Shown here: positions 3,335 to 38,870 of the stretch, one piece after another
Position numbering within the stretch: position 1 is the stretch's first letter
Layout: the number at the start of each line of letters is the position of its first letter
IMG/VR virus record: IMGVR_UViG_3300005613_000180
Coordinates: 1-38,870 of that record
Length of the DNA stretch: 38,870 nt
Strand: one strand, 5' to 3'
Source: a virus
Made by a program: the position numbers and the translations under genes
Notes under the pieces: model-generated
The model's database searches: none
What the model was told of the DNA's origin: nothing
Seen by the model: the letters and a program-made list of their open reading frames with translations, nothing else

Positions 3335-3743
3335 TTCTAAAAAGACTAACGACCTCAGGAAACTTCTCTTCAAGGGAAATGAGCAGGAGAGGATGATCTC
3401 AGCTGGAGTGCTTCGCACTATTTTTGCTGATATCACTCGTCTGTACTTCGAGAACAAACAGGCAAGGGGTAAAGGTATTTTGATTTTTAACGGAGATGAT
3501 CCTGAAAAATCAAAGTACATCACCAAAGAAGAACTTCAAGACGACCTTGCCCTCGCACAAGAGGACTGTCTAGATGATTTTGCTGAAGGTTTTAAAAAAA
3601 TGATTAATGTTATCGATAAAGAAAGCGATAACGACCTTGCCTTAGTTGCAATGGTTTACCCTGACGGGATTGCAGTAAACATTATTAACCCAGATGAAAT
3701 TAACGAAAAGATCGATGAATTAAGCAATGGTCTTATCTTCTGA
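3327..3743 (+). CDS. Acidic protein of unknown function
   Basis: A 138-residue, strongly acidic protein (MFDSKKTNDLRKLL...). The central region is helical (QERMISAGVLRTIFADITRL), followed by D/E-rich segments. It overlaps the genes on both sides (8 and 17 bases), which supports the start and shows it belongs to the 2454-4308 accessory operon. No motif is recognised. Small acidic phage proteins are often host-takeover factors, but nothing here proves that. Confidence 0.6.
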   Translation: MFDSKKTNDLRKLLFKGNEQERMISAGVLRTIFADITRLYFENKQARGKGILIFNGDDPEKSKYITKEELQDDLALAQEDCLDDFAEGFKKMINVIDKESDNDLALVAMVYPDGIAVNIINPDEINEKIDELSNGLIF

Positions 3744-10109: not shown

Positions 10110-10787
10110 TCAGATCCTAGGGATATTCAAACCTGAAAGATCAGGAAGATTTTTTATCCTGAAAGGATCATCAGTATTATAAATTCCTGGCGCTGGGTCA
10201 GCAGACACTCCAGGAACTCTAAACATAGGTTCAGCAGTTTCTTGCATAACTAGACCCGCCTCGGGTTGTTCTTCCTGCCTAGGAGCATCGTCGGTTGCAG
10301 TAACGTCTTGCTTCAAATTGAGAGCACTTTTAAGTTCGTCAATTTGCTTTTGCATATTTTCGATCAATGAGTCTCTTGACTCAGTAGCGCCACGGCTATC
10401 TGTGGCTTTGTAATAACCGCCTAATCGTCGTCCGGCAGGTCTAAAATTGCTACTCGGCCTTCCTTTAAATGCGTTAACAATGTCAGAGATACCTGCGGCT
10501 GCAGGTCCAATTGCTCTGATGTAATCCAGTACAGAGGGTTCTGGGGTAGCTATTTCAGTCGCTTGCCCAACGCTTTGTCCAGGTGCTTGACTTTGGAAGA
10601 TATCTCCCACGAGGCCACCTCCGAAACCGCCCCCAAAAGTTTCAGCGACACCTAAATTTGGTGCGTTAAAAGTGGAGGGGGTGTCGAAACTACCTTGAAA
10701 GTTGACCGTAGGAGATCCACCTAACCCTGAGTAATCACCAAAAGAACCAAAGTTAGTTCCATTTGGGGGTAAGAAACTGGATGTCAT
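10110..10787 (-). CDS. Glycine/proline-rich virion protein with coiled coil
   Basis: A 225-residue protein. Residues 1-60 are Gly/Ser/Phe-rich and disordered (FGGGFGGGLVGD). Residues 75-95 (VLDYIRAIGPAAAGISDIVNAF) form a hydrophobic helix. Around 140-160 a short coiled coil (ENMQKQIDELKSALNLK) appears. Proline-rich text follows. Such mixtures occur in internal or ejected virion proteins and connector accessories. Not recognised as a named family. Confidence 0.55.
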   Translation of the reverse strand: MTSSFLPPNGTNFGSFGDYSGLGGSPTVNFQGSFDTPSTFNAPNLGVAETFGGGFGGGLVGDIFQSQAPGQSVGQATEIATPEPSVLDYIRAIGPAAAGISDIVNAFKGRPSSNFRPAGRRLGGYYKATDSRGATESRDSLIENMQKQIDELKSALNLKQDVTATDDAPRQEEQPEAGLVMQETAEPMFRVPGVSADPAPGIYNTDDPFRIKNLPDLSGLNIPRI

Positions 10788-10795
10788 GGTTTAAC

Positions 10796-12508
10796 TCAGT
10801 AGAAAGGGTTGTACATGGGAGCGTTCTCTCGAACGAACTCCTCACGACGTTGAAGCTTGGGTTGAATTTGAGGACGAGTTGCATCCCTCATTTCAACAGC
10901 TTGTTGAAGAAGTCCGTTGACTGCCTGACCCAAGCGAGGATTTTCAAAAGCGGTTTGGCCCACAGCTTCAGAATTTCCGATTGCATTGGCCTCGTTGTCA
11001 GAACCCATAGGAGAAGTGACTTCTGTGGTGGTCACACTTTCGGGGTTTTGTTGGTTAGCAGTCGGGTCAGCCATCGAACGCTGGACTAACTGATAAGCCA
11101 GAGCGGGGTTGGCCTTAGCCCACTGGTCGAGCTGGACAGCATTCTCGCGGTCTTTAGTGATCTCACGCGCTTGACTAACGATCTCGTTTGCAACAGCAGG
11201 ATTAGAAACGTACCTTGCGCGATCTGCGTAATAGTCACCAATGTTCTTATAGGTGCTCGGATCGCGTGGTTCAAGTGCCCTTTCGACCATACCGCGAGCG
11301 GGGTCGGCTTGCTGCATTGCAGCCCGACGATTGCTGTCACGCTCATCACCACGGGTGGTGTAACTTCCAGGAGCGTTATTAAGAGGCGTCATCGGCACGT
11401 TCGCTGTCGATTGACTTTCCCCAAGAGGTGCGCCGTCGTTTTCAGTAAAAAGAACAGCAGGATCTTCGGACATTGAACCATCGAAATCCGACATCGAAGG
11501 AGATTTTGAAGGAGCTTCTTCGGTGTTGTTAAAAGTGCGTTCAAGACCTAACCCAGCCAATCCCAAGCCAACAGGGAGTGCTCCCGCTGCTACAAGCTTC
11601 TTTAAATCCATAAGGCGGGCACCTGTGTTTGCTGCTCTTGTGCTTGCACGGAGAGCATCATCAACGTCTATGACATTTACATCAACAGGGATGTTTGTGA
11701 ACTCAGAACCAGTGGACATCTCGCCACCTTGACCGCGACGTGCAAGTGCTCCACCTCGCGTTGATTGAGTCATTCCAGTAGGAGCGCGTCCTGCGGGAGG
11801 AACCATCCCGCCGCCTCTGGACACCATGTTTCTGGCATTCTCAAGAGACATGCCTTCATCCAACAAGCGAATAATATCTGTGCCGCCGGGCTCAACTAAA
11901 TCATTAACTAAGCCGCCACGGGGGATGCCGTAGTAATCTTCGGCGCGACCTGCCATCTCACGAATCGCAGAGAAAGTTCCAGGATCGCTCTTAGCTAAAC
12001 CGATAGCAGTTTCAGAGTAAGCAACCGGTGCGGTGTTTCCTCGCGGCATAGATGCCGGAAGTCCAAACTCAGGCTCTGGGGCACCTTGATCGAACAGACG
12101 ACCTTGACGAGGATCGGTAACGCCAGTGGTGGGTACAGCGCCACGGCTCATTTGAGGGCCAGACTCACTGACGATCTCAGTAGTACGAATGAAGGGACGA
12201 CGACCACCTGTAAAGTTCTGAGCTGCTCCTGTACGGGTAAGCATTTCGCCCTGCCTCATGGCAGGAGTTGAAGTAGGGATCGGGCGAGTAGGGGGAGTAA
12301 TTCTCCGCGTGGCGTCAGCAGCTTCTCTTAGTGCGGCTGCCCGAGCAGGATCTAAACCTTTTAAAAGTGGAGCAATGCCTTCTTCAATGCCCGCCCCACG
12401 GACGGCCATATCTAACACGGGAAGAAGATTATCGCCTTGTCGTGCTAATTGGCTTGTTCCTCGTTGAAAAGCTTCGCCACCTAGCTGCTTTAATAGAGAT
12501 GTAATCAC
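10796..12508 (-). CDS. Large putative internal/ejected virion protein
   Basis: A 570-residue, largely disordered, Ala/Pro/Arg-rich protein with one hydrophobic segment (VAAGALPVGLGLAGLGL, about residues 307-323), compatible with membrane insertion. The N-terminus is helical (ITSLLKQLGGEAFQRG). The C-terminus ends NAPMYNPFY. Similar composition occurs in phage internal core or ejection proteins. It starts at GTG 12508. The G+C is higher than in neighbouring accessory genes. It is the longest virion gene after the portal. No catalytic motif is seen. Confidence 0.6.
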   Translation of the reverse strand: MITSLLKQLGGEAFQRGTSQLARQGDNLLPVLDMAVRGAGIEEGIAPLLKGLDPARAAALREAADATRRITPPTRPIPTSTPAMRQGEMLTRTGAAQNFTGGRRPFIRTTEIVSESGPQMSRGAVPTTGVTDPRQGRLFDQGAPEPEFGLPASMPRGNTAPVAYSETAIGLAKSDPGTFSAIREMAGRAEDYYGIPRGGLVNDLVEPGGTDIIRLLDEGMSLENARNMVSRGGGMVPPAGRAPTGMTQSTRGGALARRGQGGEMSTGSEFTNIPVDVNVIDVDDALRASTRAANTGARLMDLKKLVAAGALPVGLGLAGLGLERTFNNTEEAPSKSPSMSDFDGSMSEDPAVLFTENDGAPLGESQSTANVPMTPLNNAPGSYTTRGDERDSNRRAAMQQADPARGMVERALEPRDPSTYKNIGDYYADRARYVSNPAVANEIVSQAREITKDRENAVQLDQWAKANPALAYQLVQRSMADPTANQQNPESVTTTEVTSPMGSDNEANAIGNSEAVGQTAFENPRLGQAVNGLLQQAVEMRDATRPQIQPKLQRREEFVRENAPMYNPFY

Positions 12509-33816: not shown

Positions 33817-34176
33817 ATGGGTTTTCCTTGCACCCAGTGCGGCATCTGCTGCCGTTCCGTTGGTTTGTGGCTAAAAGAAACCGAAAACCAGCAGGAGCCT
33901 GCATTTAAATATGCGATGGAAACTTTTCCCTATAAAACCGACGAACTTGGAGTCTGCGAAAAGTTCATATCCGAGGGAGATCATCCGGGTTGCTCTGTCT
34001 ACGAAGATAGACCTCTGTTATGTGACTCGGACAAAATGGCTGTTCTCATGGGAATACAACCAGAGGAACTATATAAACTCAATGCCATAATGTGTAACTA
34101 CATGATTCGGGCTGCCGGTTTACCGGCAAGTTATCTCATCGACGAAGATCAGTTCAACGGCTCTGCCACAGAATAA
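33817..34176 (+). CDS. YkgJ-type cysteine-cluster (metal-binding) protein
   Basis: A 119-residue protein with the signature P-C5-x-x-C8-G-x-C11-C12, C47, G-C59-S-V-Y-x-D-R-P-x-x-C69 of the YkgJ/CxxCxxCC family (zinc or iron chelating). Family members are often partners of oxygenases or methyltransferases and occur widely. The gene directly follows the methyltransferase (stop and start 2 bases apart). Role unknown; a metal-dependent modification with its neighbour is one possibility. Confidence 0.8.
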   Translation: MGFPCTQCGICCRSVGLWLKETENQQEPAFKYAMETFPYKTDELGVCEKFISEGDHPGCSVYEDRPLLCDSDKMAVLMGIQPEELYKLNAIMCNYMIRAAGLPASYLIDEDQFNGSATE

Positions 34177-34250
34177 TATCCACAAGCTCGCCTGATATAT
34201 TGGCTTCTTTTCTTTCACTTTTTTGCACTCCCCCTGTCCCTTTACCCATT

Positions 34251-34269
34251 GTTAACCTGTTCTTAACTT
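34251..34269 (+). promoter_or_regulatory. Weak two-copy Pho-box-like repeat
   Basis: GTTAACCT-gtt-CTTAACTT has the 8+3 spacing of the cyanobacterial Pho box, with a G instead of a pyrimidine at the first position. It lies between convergent genes, so there is no obvious downstream target on the plus strand. Confidence 0.25.
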
Positions 34270-34281
34270 TGGCCCTGGGTT

Positions 34282-34518
34282 TTATTCTCTTCGTCCAGTC
34301 CCAAGCAAACTTAACACTGTCGCCGTCGCGATCCCAAACAAATTTTCCGTGCGACTTCCTAGCTTAGGACATGTGTTTGCCATCGTCGCTTCTTCCTTGG
34401 TTTCTATTACATTTGCACATTTAATAAAACTAAAGCCCAACAACACAAACTGACAAAAGAACACTGCCACGAGTGCCCTCAACAAAAAGACTTCCCTCCT
34501 GAATGGAGAGTTAGCCAA
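34282..34518 (-). CDS. Small membrane protein, holin-like
   Basis: A 78-residue protein with two hydrophobic helices (FLLRALVAVFFCQFVLLGFSF and LFGIATATVLSLLG, in parts) around a C-P-K-L-G-S-R-T-E-N turn. The pattern C-A-N, acidic, then C-P-x-x-x-x-R-x-x-x-x-F recalls small proteins near lysis or virion genes of cyanophages. It overlaps the upstream gene by 8 bases. A second holin or antiholin is possible. Confidence 0.5.
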   Translation of the reverse strand: MANSPFRREVFLLRALVAVFFCQFVLLGFSFIKCANVIETKEEATMANTCPKLGSRTENLFGIATATVLSLLGTGRRE

Positions 34519-35146
34519 ACCTCTTTCTTAGGATATCTTCTTGTGCGCCACGAAGAGCCTCACGGAGTCGATCGCTTTTAATGCTTTCATAACCTCCGAC
34601 TGGCCCCATCTGAGCCATCGCCCGATCTAATGCACTGACCGCATTACGTTCTACAGCATCTACTTCATTCATAGGGTTCCCACCCGTGGCCACTGCAGGA
34701 ACTGGGGAAGATACAGGCACTGGAGTATCAACAGTGGCTGGACCTGTTTCCCTTGCTGCTCGTGGTGGGATTACATCTACATCCGTTTCAGACCGCCTTG
34801 GCGGTGTTTCAGACAAAGTTGCAGTAGGAACTTGACCTGGCTGAATCCCACGCTCAAGGAGTTTTCGATCCTCCTCACGCGCTTTTCTCAACATTTCGTC
34901 TTCCCCTGCATTTACAGGGTTATACATATCCGCACCGATCAAAGCGCCAACAGGCATTAAAACCGGATTGGGTGCGGACAATGCACCATACATAGCGCCG
35001 CGAATAGGATCAGGAAGATTTAACTTATCTGCAACAATATCCGCAGCAGCTCCATAAAGGAGACCGCCTCGTACTCCAAGAGGATTTAGAAGTCTCTTCG
35101 GATCTTGATAGATCCTACGAGGATCTAACCAGCGTGGAAATTCCAT
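34511..35146 (-). CDS. Virion-associated protein of unknown function
   Basis: A 211-residue protein. The first 80 residues are amphipathic and hydrophobic in part (GVRGGLLYGAAADIVADKL; LMPVGALIGADMY); the middle is Pro/Thr/Val-rich linker; the end is helical and basic (LREALRGAQEDILRKRFG). Composition matches internal or ejected proteins. Transcribed with the M23-like and metalloprotease genes. Not recognised. Confidence 0.5.
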   Translation of the reverse strand: MEFPRWLDPRRIYQDPKRLLNPLGVRGGLLYGAAADIVADKLNLPDPIRGAMYGALSAPNPVLMPVGALIGADMYNPVNAGEDEMLRKAREEDRKLLERGIQPGQVPTATLSETPPRRSETDVDVIPPRAARETGPATVDTPVPVSSPVPAVATGGNPMNEVDAVERNAVSALDRAMAQMGPVGGYESIKSDRLREALRGAQEDILRKRFG

Positions 35147-35360: not shown

Positions 35361-36188
35361 TTATAAAACAGACCGTCCAGGTTTAAAGCTTGACATCGCT
35401 TGCTGTGCTAATTCAGCGATCATATTTGAAGTCCTCTGTGTTTCAGTAATACCGGCTTGCTGAATCTCTTTTTCCACGGGGTTAGCTTGACGTTGTTTTC
35501 TCTCACTTACCACTTGTCTTAACGCTTGTTCAATTCGACTGGTATCACTGTCCTCGCTAGATATAGGGGCTGGGTCAGTTCCACTAAAATCAGACGCTCC
35601 CTTCGCTGAAGCCATCAAACCACTTAAAAGGTTAGTCAAAACAGTGGACCTAGTCGATCCATCGGACTTAGTCGAGTAATTATCGATCCGAGCCACATCA
35701 CCCTGGTACTCAGATCCCCAAACAGGTGCGGGTTTTTCCGATGATGGCGTACTCGTTTGCGTGGGAGGTGCAGAAAGATTCGCACTGGACACCGCAGCAC
35801 CACTCAAAACCTTATTTTTCGGGCTTCCATGCAAAAGAAGCGCCTCATACGTCTTTCCGTTGCGTTCAAAAGCATATTGGGACATGATACCGCCCCCTTT
35901 ATCGCGAAAAGTCGTTAAATAACGACCTCCAACGACTTCAACTGGCGTATTTTCAGGCGTGGCGTAATCTAAACCCTTGTGAAACCGCGAAGCTCCAGGG
36001 ATACCAGTGTCGCGTGGGCCATATCCACTGGTTTGACGATACAGATCGACTAAGGGCTTGTCTCCAACGCGCAAAACATCCTCAAAACCACGCGGGTCGA
36101 TGTAGTCACCGACTTCTGGGTCGTAAATACGAAAATCTAAATGTGGACCAGAGCCAACTCCAGTAGCGCCAGTGTAGAAAACAGACAT
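35361..36188 (-). CDS. M23-like peptidase in permuted order, with shared tail tag
   Basis: A 275-residue protein. Residues 10-33 (G-S-G-P-H16-L-D18-F-R-I, then GDYIDPRGF) match what normally ends an M23/LytM domain (G-P-H-L-H-F then D-P). They are followed by S-R-F-H70-K-G-L-D74-Y-A-T-P and L-L-L-H120-G, which normally begin and continue the domain, so the halves are swapped. The usual second His of H-x-H is Asp18. If active it would cut peptide cross-links of peptidoglycan. A Ser/Pro linker leads to the tail SFKPGRSVL, shared with the lysozyme at 5138. It is probably virion-borne. Confidence 0.7.
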   Translation of the reverse strand: MSVFYTGATGVGSGPHLDFRIYDPEVGDYIDPRGFEDVLRVGDKPLVDLYRQTSGYGPRDTGIPGASRFHKGLDYATPENTPVEVVGGRYLTTFRDKGGGIMSQYAFERNGKTYEALLLHGSPKNKVLSGAAVSSANLSAPPTQTSTPSSEKPAPVWGSEYQGDVARIDNYSTKSDGSTRSTVLTNLLSGLMASAKGASDFSGTDPAPISSEDSDTSRIEQALRQVVSERKQRQANPVEKEIQQAGITETQRTSNMIAELAQQAMSSFKPGRSVL

Positions 36189-36196
36189 TTTTGTGT

Positions 36197-37135
36197 TTAA
36201 TAAGAAACAGGGTAAGGATAACGAGATGCCTGAATATCTAAATAAGGATCCTTATCTATAAACTTACCAGCTTCAGTTGCATCGCCTAACGTTTTCTCCG
36301 TAAGCTCAAAAGCCCGTTTAAGTTGAGCTTGCCTCGCAGTTTGATACTCATTATTTAAACCAAGACTCATTAATCTGCGAGCATAATCATCCCTAACGTC
36401 TACCATAGTGTTTGCATCACCGCGTATAACAGGAGAAAAACCCTTAGGGCCAAAAACTTGAGCACTACCGTAATAATCAGGATTAAATTTATCGTAGGCA
36501 CTTTCAGGGATATTAGGGACTGTAAAACCACGTTCGGCTGCCTCTGTACCTTTAAATATGTATTGCATAGGGTACATCCCTAAATCTTCTTTACTACTGT
36601 TATCTTCTAAACCCTGAGATTTATAATAGTCATCTGCATACTTCTGAGCTTTTAACTCAGCCCTAAGCCTGCCTCTAGGACCTTGAGTAGCTAAATACTG
36701 ACCTAAAAACTCAGCAGGATTATCAAAATACGGACTCATTATCTCACCAAAGTTTTCCTGGCCTTGTCTTTCAGACATCATTTCTTTGGGAAGAGTTGGG
36801 TCAAGCGCGTGACCTGCTTCATGAGCAAGGGTAAAAAGACTCCCTGTTTTAGGATTTAAGTGAATAACTCGTTTATCGAGGTCCGAATGACCACCCTCAG
36901 GATTAAGAGGTGTGTAGTAACCCGCAGAATCCTTAGGGGCTTCGAGACTGTTGGGCCGAATATCTATATTTAAATTTTTAGTACTACGAATAAAATCTAC
37001 TAACTGCTGCGCTTCCGTAGAAGGCACAAAAGAATAAGGTTGGTTTGCTGAACTAACAGGATATTTGTCACTAAAAATAAACTCACCGGCAGATATGGGT
37101 TCACTCTCTGGAGTATAAAAAACGTTCTTAGCCAC
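36197..37135 (-). CDS. Virion-associated zinc metalloprotease (HExxH)
   Basis: A 312-residue protein with T-L-A-H105-E106-A-G-H109-A-L-D, the HExxH zinc site of gluzincin-type proteases, and N-P-A-E142-F as the likely third ligand. The C-terminal half is Tyr/Asn-rich and ends YPYPVSY. It lies 8 bases upstream of the M23-like gene. It could process virion or host proteins at entry. The fold around the motif is not clearly ImmA/IrrE or other known type. No signal peptide. Confidence 0.7.
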   Translation of the reverse strand: MAKNVFYTPESEPISAGEFIFSDKYPVSSANQPYSFVPSTEAQQLVDFIRSTKNLNIDIRPNSLEAPKDSAGYYTPLNPEGGHSDLDKRVIHLNPKTGSLFTLAHEAGHALDPTLPKEMMSERQGQENFGEIMSPYFDNPAEFLGQYLATQGPRGRLRAELKAQKYADDYYKSQGLEDNSSKEDLGMYPMQYIFKGTEAAERGFTVPNIPESAYDKFNPDYYGSAQVFGPKGFSPVIRGDANTMVDVRDDYARRLMSLGLNNEYQTARQAQLKRAFELTEKTLGDATEAGKFIDKDPYLDIQASRYPYPVSY

Positions 37136-37200: not shown

Positions 37201-37274
37201 TAGGGGTCGCGAGGATCGAACTCGCCTTCGGCAAATTATGAGTTTGCTGCATTCCTCCAGATTGCTAGACCCCC
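37201..37274 (-). tRNA. tRNA with CAU anticodon (elongator Met or Ile2)
   Basis: Minus strand: GGGGGTC / GACCCCT acceptor (the outer pair G-U), D-stem GCA/TGC, anticodon stem GCAAA/TTTGC with loop CTCATAA, T-stem GCGAG/CTCGC with TTCGATC. Discriminator A; CCA is not encoded. The anticodon stem lacks the three G-C pairs of initiator tRNA, so it is elongator Met, or Ile if C34 becomes lysidine. Confidence 0.9.
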
Positions 37275-37310: not shown

Positions 37311-37832
37311 GTGGTTGAAACCTGGGTGCCTATAAAAGGCTACGAAGGACTCTATGAGGTTAGTGACTTAGGAAGAGTCTATAGCTTAGGTAGAACCATT
37401 CGCGGTGTGCGACGTGGAACAGAGTGTGACATCACGTATAAACCCAAAATCTTAAAGGCTCGTAACAACAGAGGGTACAAGTACGTATCTCTCTGCAAAG
37501 ATGGTGTCTTAAAGATAGCAAAGGTTCATTTACTTGTCGCAAAAAATTTTTTAGAACCTGTTCCTGGGAAACCGTTTGTCCTCCACGGGCGGCGTGGATC
37601 TCTTTGTAATGAAGTCTCGAACCTTAGATACGGCACACAAAGTGAAAACGCGCTCGACAAACACTTAGACGGGACTTTCCCAAATACTATACCTGATGAA
37701 ACTGTTGCTGAAATTAGACATATTTACGCAAACTCTGAATTAAATTATGCACAGCTTGCTGATCTGTATTCAATAAGCATCAGAACAGTAGGTCGAATAG
37801 TACGCCGTGACTCTTACAAACACTTAGTGTAA
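37311..37832 (+). CDS. HNH homing-type endonuclease (NUMOD4 + HNH + HTH)
   Basis: A 173-residue, GTG-started protein. NUMOD4 at 3-30 (TWVPIKGYEGLYEVSDLGRVYSL), HNH at about 70-115 (K-V-H73-L-L-V-A, then V-L-H92-G-R-R-G-x-x-x-N100, V-S-N104-L-R-Y-G-T-Q-S-E-N), and a C-terminal HTH (ETVAEIRHIY, AQLADLYSISIRTVGRI). The usual H-x-D-G is H-G-R-R-G, so activity is uncertain. Such genes move as free-standing endonucleases in phages. It lies between the CAU tRNA and a long intergenic region, oriented opposite to the virion genes. Confidence 0.8.
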   Translation: MVETWVPIKGYEGLYEVSDLGRVYSLGRTIRGVRRGTECDITYKPKILKARNNRGYKYVSLCKDGVLKIAKVHLLVAKNFLEPVPGKPFVLHGRRGSLCNEVSNLRYGTQSENALDKHLDGTFPNTIPDETVAEIRHIYANSELNYAQLADLYSISIRTVGRIVRRDSYKHLV

Positions 37833-38229
37833 CTCTATGCACGAACTCCCCAAGCTGAGTTTACCTGGAAGATACCCAAACCCTTCTCGCCCACCACGTC
37901 GGTAAGCCCGCGCATTTAAAAAAAAGCGACAAAATTGCGGTCCTATCATGCGCGTGCGTGCGGATGCGGGGGTGGGGGCGTGGCTTAGTTAAATACTATG
38001 TGTTAATTATCAAGAATTAATCACGATTAAGTTTGCATTATTAACCAACTGGGCGGGCAGTTAATTTTACTTTTTAGTTTAAGTTTATTCGTATTAGTTA
38101 CACGATCTAGTCACTGTTAATTAGTAACAATCAACAATCATTAATTAATACTATTTATTTATAATTATATTTTAGTTTTTATTTATATCACTTAGTCTTA
38201 CAATACTTTTAAGATCGCCCAGTGAATAG
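37833..38229. other. Gene-free region: G-run segment then AT-rich segment
   Basis: No frame looks coding. At 37968-37978 GGGGG-t-GGGGG lies in a GC-rich patch (gcgcgtgcgtgcgg before, gcgtgg after) that could form a G-quadruplex. From about 37985 to 38215 the sequence is AT-rich, with many TTAAT/ATTAA motifs, including TTAATT-atcaag-AATTAA near 38003. The low melting temperature and position next to the Pho-box array make it a candidate control or replication region, but nothing proves it. Confidence 0.4.
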
Positions 38230-38270
38230 CTTAACCAGATCTTAACCTAACCTTAACCAGTTCTTAGTTG
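38230..38270 (+). promoter_or_regulatory. Four-copy Pho-box-like array (PhoB/SphR site)
   Basis: CTTAACCA-gat-CTTAACCT-aac-CTTAACCA-gtt-CTTAGTTG: 8-base units with 3-base spacers, so an exact 11-base period. The cyanobacterial Pho box (site of SphR/PhoB, the phosphate-starvation response regulator) is described as tandem Y-T-T-A-A-Y-Y-T/A units with this spacing. Three units match fully and the fourth in part. Orientation points to the right, toward the structured region and the partial gene at 38791. Pho boxes are known upstream of pstS and phoA in some cyanophages; neither is visible here. Confidence 0.75.
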
Positions 38271-38302
38271 TACCTGGTGCCGTTTGGATTTACCTTTAGG
38301 TC

Positions 38303-38770
38303 ATGGAGATCAGGGACGTGCAGCGCTGCTGCAACGATCCTCTCTCTCCTGACAGTTCCCAAACTGTCTCCCTAACGTCCCAATCACGATCATCCAATGG
38401 TGTAGGATTGGCAAGCCGGTGAACGAGGCCGGAGCTATAACCCGACAGGGCTTAACTGAGAGTTCGAACCTGGCCACGCGCCGCTAGCTTTCTCTCGCCC
38501 GATCCCTGACGTGTCGATACTGCCTCCATAGGTAGCCAGAGACCTAGGCCGAAAGCCCTAGGATCCCTGCAAGTGTCCGTTCGCCCCGAGTTAAATGCCG
38601 AGGGTTGATGCGAACCAGACTAACTTGCGGCCAACGTGGATGTGCTCTCGATGCGCACTGGTTAGTTAACTTTGTAGATTGCGTGCAAGTTAACTAAATT
38701 GTACCTAGTTTGCCTGCAATGTATGGCGATGTGGTTACAGCACGATGAGACTTGTATCTCACCCTGTAAC
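38303..38770 (+). other. Hairpin-rich non-coding stretch, possible structured RNA or long leader
   Basis: No protein frame is convincing (the longest plus-strand ATG frame, 38303-38422, has 39 codons of low-complexity text). The stretch is GC-rich and holds many self-complementary pieces: GGGACGT (about 38315) with ACGTCCC (about 38374), enclosing GCAGCGCTGC and GACAGTT-ccca-AACTGTC; CCAAT...ATTGG near 38396-38414; CCTAGG-c-CGAAAG-c-CCTAGG near 38543-38562 with a GAAA tetraloop; and a nested GTTACAG/TGAGA...TCTCA/CTGTAAC at 38734-38770. It may be a Pho-controlled small RNA or 5' leader. Confidence 0.4.
38662..38697. repeat. 11-base perfect inverted repeat
   Basis: TTAGTTAACTT (38662-38672), 14 bases, then AAGTTAACTAA (38687-38697). 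Each arm includes the palindrome AGTTAACT, so it may be a dyad operator or a hairpin. A related CGTGCAA-x-TTAACTA text recurs at 38683 and 38777, and CGTGCAA again at 38820. Confidence 0.65.
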
Positions 38771-38790
38771 TGATACGTGCAAACTTAACT

Positions 38791-38870
38791 ATGTCTGTAA
38801 GTCCCACCGGTTTCGGGGGCGTGCAACCTGTCACCATTCGCGTACCTGTGTTTAATGCAGTTACGCGACA
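38791..38870 (+). CDS. N-terminus of an unknown protein, cut by the window edge
   Basis: Twenty-six codons from an ATG read MSVSPTGFGGVQPVTIRVPV then FNAVTR, open to the window end, with natural alternation of hydrophobic and polar residues. It could be a virion or cargo gene. There is no Shine-Dalgarno sequence upstream, and a minus-strand frame also stays open here, so the call is tentative. It lies 520 bases downstream of the Pho-box array and may be its target. Confidence 0.4.
   Translation, partial: MSVSPTGFGGVQPVTIRVPVFNAVTR

Follow-up and report, generated by a model that had tools for sequence, protein, structure and literature searches.

Gene layout at the locus

The DNA analysed here, referred to as the window, is a linear virus record of 38,870 bases (IMG/VR record IMGVR_UViG_3300005613_000180), about half of a genome like that of Synechococcus phage S-EIV1, and our subject is a set of three direct repeats at 38230-38259 that matches the Pho box, the binding site of the cyanobacterial phosphate regulator SphR/PhoB. 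The major head protein, the portal and the large terminase (TerL) encoded in the window share 68%, 47% and about 51% identity, respectively, with those of S-EIV1. By these homologous genes the window is an S-EIV1-like cyanophage, in line with the first-pass annotation of this DNA, which had taken it for a phage of cyanobacteria. The group is common in IMG/VR, where one scan gave 276 portal relatives, and nine long relatives there have a major head protein 94-97% identical to that of the window.

Nearly all late genes of the window are oriented leftward. The most informative relative, G001, is an 81.6-kb record with the same gene order, whose leftward late genes end at 34969 and are followed by a junction of ~1 kb, with an AT-rich stretch and a noncoding leader of ~690-760 nucleotides, and then by rightward genes from 36174. 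These rightward early genes encode DUF2786, dCTP deaminase, VWA protein, DNA polymerase A (PolA) and D5_N primase, and among them is GP88, assigned by homology to L160. Because one late gene of the window matches the last one of G001 and four short islands follow in the same order, window positions 37833-38870 are, by comparison with G001, the same junction, from which late genes diverge leftward and an early operon rightward. On the late side the landmarks are as follows.

35361-36188, minus strand: late gene that anchors the synteny, matching G001 34154-34969
36197-37135, minus strand: first large late-side gene by the junction, 312 amino acids, with an 82% identical relative in L002
37990-38225, strand not assigned: AT-rich stretch of the divergent late/early junction, seen in the sequence and equally placed in G001

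The synteny with G001 also means that the box faces the early operon, which would lie ahead of it, past the contig end. A search for further junctions through the late gene at 35361-36188 returned the L002 contig, known before, and otherwise distant or unrelated matches. The late side of the junction also carries a tRNA-Met gene (37201-37274, minus strand) beside an HNH homing-endonuclease gene (NUMOD4/HNH_3; 37311-37832, plus strand), and L002 has a tRNA-Met at the equivalent place.

A perfect triple Pho box

The repeats read CTTAACCA-gat-CTTAACCT-aac-CTTAACCA, with unit starts 11 and 11 base pairs apart.

38230-38237, plus strand: Pho-box unit 1, CTTAACCA, 8/8 to CTTAACCW
38241-38248, plus strand: Pho-box unit 2, CTTAACCT, 8/8 to CTTAACCW
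38252-38259, plus strand: Pho-box unit 3, CTTAACCA, 8/8 to CTTAACCW
38263-38270, plus strand: partial fourth unit, CTTAGTTG, 4/8 to CTTAACCW

The published rule for cyanobacterial SphR/PhoB sites asks for at least three tandem 8-bp repeats, YTTAAYYW or CTTAACCT, with 3-bp linkers (PMC1906773, PMC13226834). Both features are present in the window, that is, at least three tandem 8-mers and 3-bp linkers giving an 11-bp period, and the first-pass identification of CTTAACC-type units at 11-base spacing as a cyanobacterial Pho box is thereby borne out. The same annotation had counted three full units and one partial and spoken of a four-unit box; the three full units are exact, while the label has to be dropped, with CTTAGTTG matching at only half of its positions. 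The CTTAGTNGTA stretch of this partial unit is also found in a look-alike site (CTTAGTGGTAATGGGAGCC) of L137, a cyanophage contig described below.

Chance had been judged a very unlikely source of the repeats, and a comparison of matrix scores with randomized sequence agrees. The box reaches a weighted three-unit score of 39/39, and scores peaked at 34 among 4,000 first-order Markov sequences as long as the window, with P(max>=34) = 0.001; when the local AT-rich stretch was simulated 3,000 times, the highest score was 33. Three occurrences of CTTAACN5 repeated three times were found with up to three mismatches (two overlapping at the box, one at 34240), against 0.05 expected per window. This confirms the box as a non-random site that follows the published repeat rule for SphR/PhoB. 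Cyanobacterial genomes seldom contain perfect CTTAACC pairs (117 genomes gave 27 matches, and 8 with the reversed control), and for this reason the host cannot be identified through exact sites. Matching the window end, the box or an L205 array against the DNA of annotated phages gave nothing useful.

Two other sites of this kind were noted. A second Pho-like triple, CTTTACCCATTGTTAACCTGTTCTTAAC, lies between convergent genes at 34240-34267 on the plus strand, its score of 34 having a P of about 0.001 in the window, and L002 retains a two-unit remnant at a roughly equivalent position (3403-3419, minus strand). A two-unit CTTAACAATTTCTTAAC in the relative G009, which faces away from the early genes of that record, was judged incidental.

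A probable structured noncoding leader downstream of the box

More than 600 noncoding nucleotides lie 3' of the box. The first-pass annotation had placed an unknown gene here, but no open reading frame (ORF) of at least 60 amino acids exists from 37833 to the contig end at 38870.

38275-38870, plus strand: 5' part of the long structured noncoding leader of the early operon, truncated by the contig end (no such ORF, folding z-score -2.6, islands in common with G001)
38482-38492, plus strand: leader island CGCTAGCTTTC, common to G001 by sequence comparison
38532-38541, plus strand: leader island GTAGCCAGAG, common to G001 by sequence comparison
38574-38594, plus strand: leader island TGTCCG..CGAGTTAA, common to G001 by sequence comparison
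38618-38628, plus strand: leader island GACTAACTTGC (GACTAAYnTGC), common to G001 by sequence comparison

The four islands are collinear in the window and G001, so that the stretch has both the junction position and the ordered islands of a G001-type early-operon leader. The impression of a hairpin-rich stretch was correct, with a folding z-score of about -2.6 on each strand; since sense and antisense values are alike, the leader of the window shows no strand preference. In the leaders of G001, G044, L341 and G010 the sense-strand score ranges from -3.2 to -5.9, and in coding controls (eight stretches) from +0.7 to -2.5. The ends of the G001 and G044 leaders are 88-92% identical, compared with 69-87% in adjoining coding DNA, and enclose a hypervariable middle. 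The leader pairs L339/L341 and L336/L297 likewise keep both ends between close relatives, around a hypervariable middle of roughly 240-450 nucleotides.

Pairwise covariation analysis (G010/L341, G001/G044) found no compensatory changes above the null, the covariance models of Rfam 15 gave no convincing hit in window 37800-38870, L330 or L331, and ARAGORN detected no tRNA in the leader. Taken together, comparison among relatives supports the leader as a constrained noncoding sequence, but not a specific RNA fold. Because synteny with G001 puts the box at the head of the operon, the structured stretch is most simply read as the operon's long 5' leader. The proposal of a new phage element thus holds as to the site and the structured noncoding stretch, but not as to their isolation from any target gene, since this place is where the early replication operon begins in G001.

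A predicted SphR/PhoB-dependent promoter replaces the early promoter of relatives

At the same junction the relatives carry sigma-70-like promoters: TTAACA-16-TATGAT (10/12) in G044, similar pairs in G001 and G002, and TTGACA-18-TTTAAT (11/12) in G010 and L341. The best sigma-70 pair of the window scores only 8/12, and its -10 aligns with the -35 region of the relatives. Two promoter-like elements lie close to the box.

38269-38274, plus strand: candidate -10 hexamer TGTACC, weak (3/6), 9 nucleotides past unit 3, an inferred element
38164-38191, minus strand: promoter-like GTGATA-16-TATAAT towards the late genes, weak (2 found, 1.7 expected)

At the same offset L137 has GGTAAT (4/6). Pho boxes of cyanobacteria sit at the -35 of a promoter or farther upstream, and the element on which this spacing can be judged in the window is the weak TGTACC. 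Poor core elements are tolerated by activator-dependent promoters. The best reading of this arrangement is a SphR/PhoB-dependent promoter standing in place of the usual early promoter, with binding of the regulator predicted from the repeats. More fully, we consider, at a probability of about 0.6, that the host-type Pho box serves for activation of the promoter in front of the early operon for phage DNA replication. In a host short of phosphate, phosphorylated SphR/PhoB would occupy the three direct repeats and recruit RNA polymerase to the poor -10 ~9 nucleotides downstream, and transcription, with a predicted start near 38281, would run rightward through the long structured 5' leader and small early ORFs, and then through replication and nucleotide genes expected past the contig end.

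The regulator could instead act as a repressor. Pho boxes close to the -10 have this effect at urtA of Synechocystis (PMC13226834), and by analogy SphR/PhoB bound during starvation over the promoter or the early transcribed region would block early transcription and delay replication. The alignment offers some basis for this, as the window box starts at the -10 of the relatives and there is a TACAAT ahead of it (38199-38204). However, the counterpart of this TACAAT in the relatives is their -35 region and not their -10, a convincing promoter to be repressed is missing upstream, and the spacing of about 9 nucleotides between the repeats and the candidate -10 is an activator layout. We therefore regard repression as unlikely, though it is the chief rival as to mechanism.

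Several observations weigh against activation of an early operon by the box. Its -10 is poor, which is the weakest link of the promoter assignment; the operon is outside the window, its place being given by synteny alone; and the contig of the nearest relative, L002, stops short of the junction. Scanning other cyanophages, as the first-pass annotation had proposed, gave no Pho box in nine longer S-EIV1-like records, G001 included, nor in S-EIV1 (all scores 30 or less). GP88 loci fetched via similarity to the GP88 of G001 have no upstream array (0/21). In S-PM2d, predicted Pho boxes were partly unbound, one bound promoter had no box, and the authors call such predictions unreliable (PMC10976474).

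Lack of conservation among relatives, together with the existence of in-silico boxes that are not bound (PMC10976474), would also suit a fortuitous or decaying Pho-box-like sequence with no function. Such an origin is improbable in view of a perfect score that was not reached in 4,000 simulations, the location of the box at the early promoter position and the use of the same design in L137.

Pho-box arrays in L137 and ahead of GP88 operons

The pattern of three CTTAACN5 units followed by CTTAG occurs in one other IMG/VR contig, L137. The order there is thyX, CTTAACCAAAC CTTAACCAGAC CTTAACCAAAT CTTAGTGGTAATGG, a structured leader of ~300 nucleotides, small ORFs and a DUF7227 gene, and AAGCACCTAGACAA is common to the leaders of L137 and G010. 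In sequence, this cyanophage contig repeats the design of the window, with Pho box, structured leader and small ORFs.

Between its small early ORFs (10600-11210) L137 also has hairpin units that recur and contain T-arm-like sequences (GGGATCGAATCCC, GCAGGTTTGAGTCCTGC), followed by GTTATT and a second hairpin before an ATG. These units resemble reduced tRNA-like elements and are perhaps processing sites. In S-EIV1 (KJ410740, 43497-43791, minus strand) a repeat CTGATCCGTCAAAGCGGGT and then a hairpin with the loop TGCAAAC precede small early ORFs.

Scanning IMG/VR for CTTAACN5 repeated three times yielded at least 119 stretches. Among the matches listed, GP88 is encoded in 23 of the 119; it lies downstream of the array on the same strand in 21 of these 23 (20 within 2.3 kb), and the 23 loci span eight protein clusters. 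It is found at none of 80 portal loci, 26 other viral loci and 51 genome loci. In eight loci with perfect triples (L160, L114, L192, L201, L164, L104, L199, L207) GP88 is one of the first large genes behind the array; an RNR gene follows it in L160, and RNR-like proteins are encoded in L192 and L199. Such boxes thus recur ahead of early, nucleotide-related operons, yet not universally.

GP88 (PF17338) of G001, at L340 5001-5858, has invariant cysteines (C-x5-C-x3-C) and the motifs RLN(G)TSD and FYDYTK. A structure model (pLDDT 75) gave no significant fold match, the weak best being a radical SAM protein (E 0.058). CTTAAC triples upstream of GP88, often followed by a Bacteroidetes-like TAnnTTTG, were seen in L097, L098, L102, L108, L121, L125, L143, L144, L149, L157 and L176, and the link between Pho box and GP88 may therefore cross phyla.

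Some arrays are much longer, with 9-21 CTTAACC units mostly 11 bp apart: L104 (minus strand), L160 (8181-8308), L195 (6266-6455), L199, L201 (12264-12564), L205 (11818-12059) and L207 (11590-11791). Several of them are interleaved with a LexA-box-like AGTACAAATGTACT, and L162 carries a Fur-box-like GATAATGATTCTCATT; these could be multi-regulator promoters or sponges. The latter idea, extended to the window, would have phage sites draw SphR/PhoB off the host Pho genes, more strongly in phages with many units, and the long arrays as well as the rarity of perfect triples in prokaryotes (51 stretches across 84,980 genomes) fit it. Titration is nevertheless very unlikely here, as the window has just three units and the arrays elsewhere face GP88 operons in a promoter-like manner. 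Equally hard to credit are iterons of a replication origin, for although in-phase 11-bp repeats adjoin an AT-rich, possibly unwinding stretch and structured DNA with hairpins, the same junction lacks repeats in G001, G044, G002, G010 and L341, where an origin would be needed too, and both sequence and linker fit a Pho box exactly.

Implications and comparison with known systems

The placement of the box suggests that host phosphate shortage may control the start of the phage replication programme. If so, phosphate starvation of the host would set how strongly a lytic cyanophage begins replication, and host-PhoB control of replication genes would extend from the T4-like S-PM2d to a separate lineage. 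Such control of phage replication genes is already known; new here are the lineage, the leader and the exchange of promoters at the late/early junction. The swap is directly testable, one and the same junction having a sigma-70 promoter in G001 and G010 and a Pho box in the window, and the arrays provide a lead on the function of GP88, which is encoded behind them in phages of different lineages. As a doubtful extension, unrelated phage lineages might have independently placed their whole early/replication programme under the host phosphate regulator, the first product here being a self-acting structured leader RNA with conserved ends and a hypervariable middle, so that phosphate would be sensed before replication.

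With the Pho boxes of sphX, pstS and phoA in Synechocystis PCC 6803 (PMC1906773, PMC13226834) the window shares three 8-bp YTTAAYYW repeats, 3-bp linkers and a transcript, here predicted, on the same strand. In contrast to those sites, its box is phage-borne and closer to the consensus than the listed host sites, and its target by synteny is a long leader with replication genes instead of phosphate uptake. P-SSM2-type cyanophages, whose pstS is under PhoB (described in PMC10976474), likewise place a phage promoter under a host two-component system, but no pstS or phoA is within reach of the window box, which is expected to act on the early operon. The CTTAACC arrays before GP88 operons in IMG/VR have the same unit, period, noncoding gap and GP88-type operon; they differ in having up to 21 units, LexA-like boxes in several cases and protein lineages other than that of S-EIV1. 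The closest parallel in function is S-PM2d, in which PhoB of Synechococcus WH7803 binds the promoters of the DNA polymerase and uvsX genes, both of which rise under P depletion (PMC10976474). There, as predicted for the window, the host phosphate regulator presides over phage replication genes; the S-PM2d boxes are poor matches within a T4-like replication cluster, whereas that of the window is a perfect triple at the divergent junction of an unrelated, S-EIV1-like phage.
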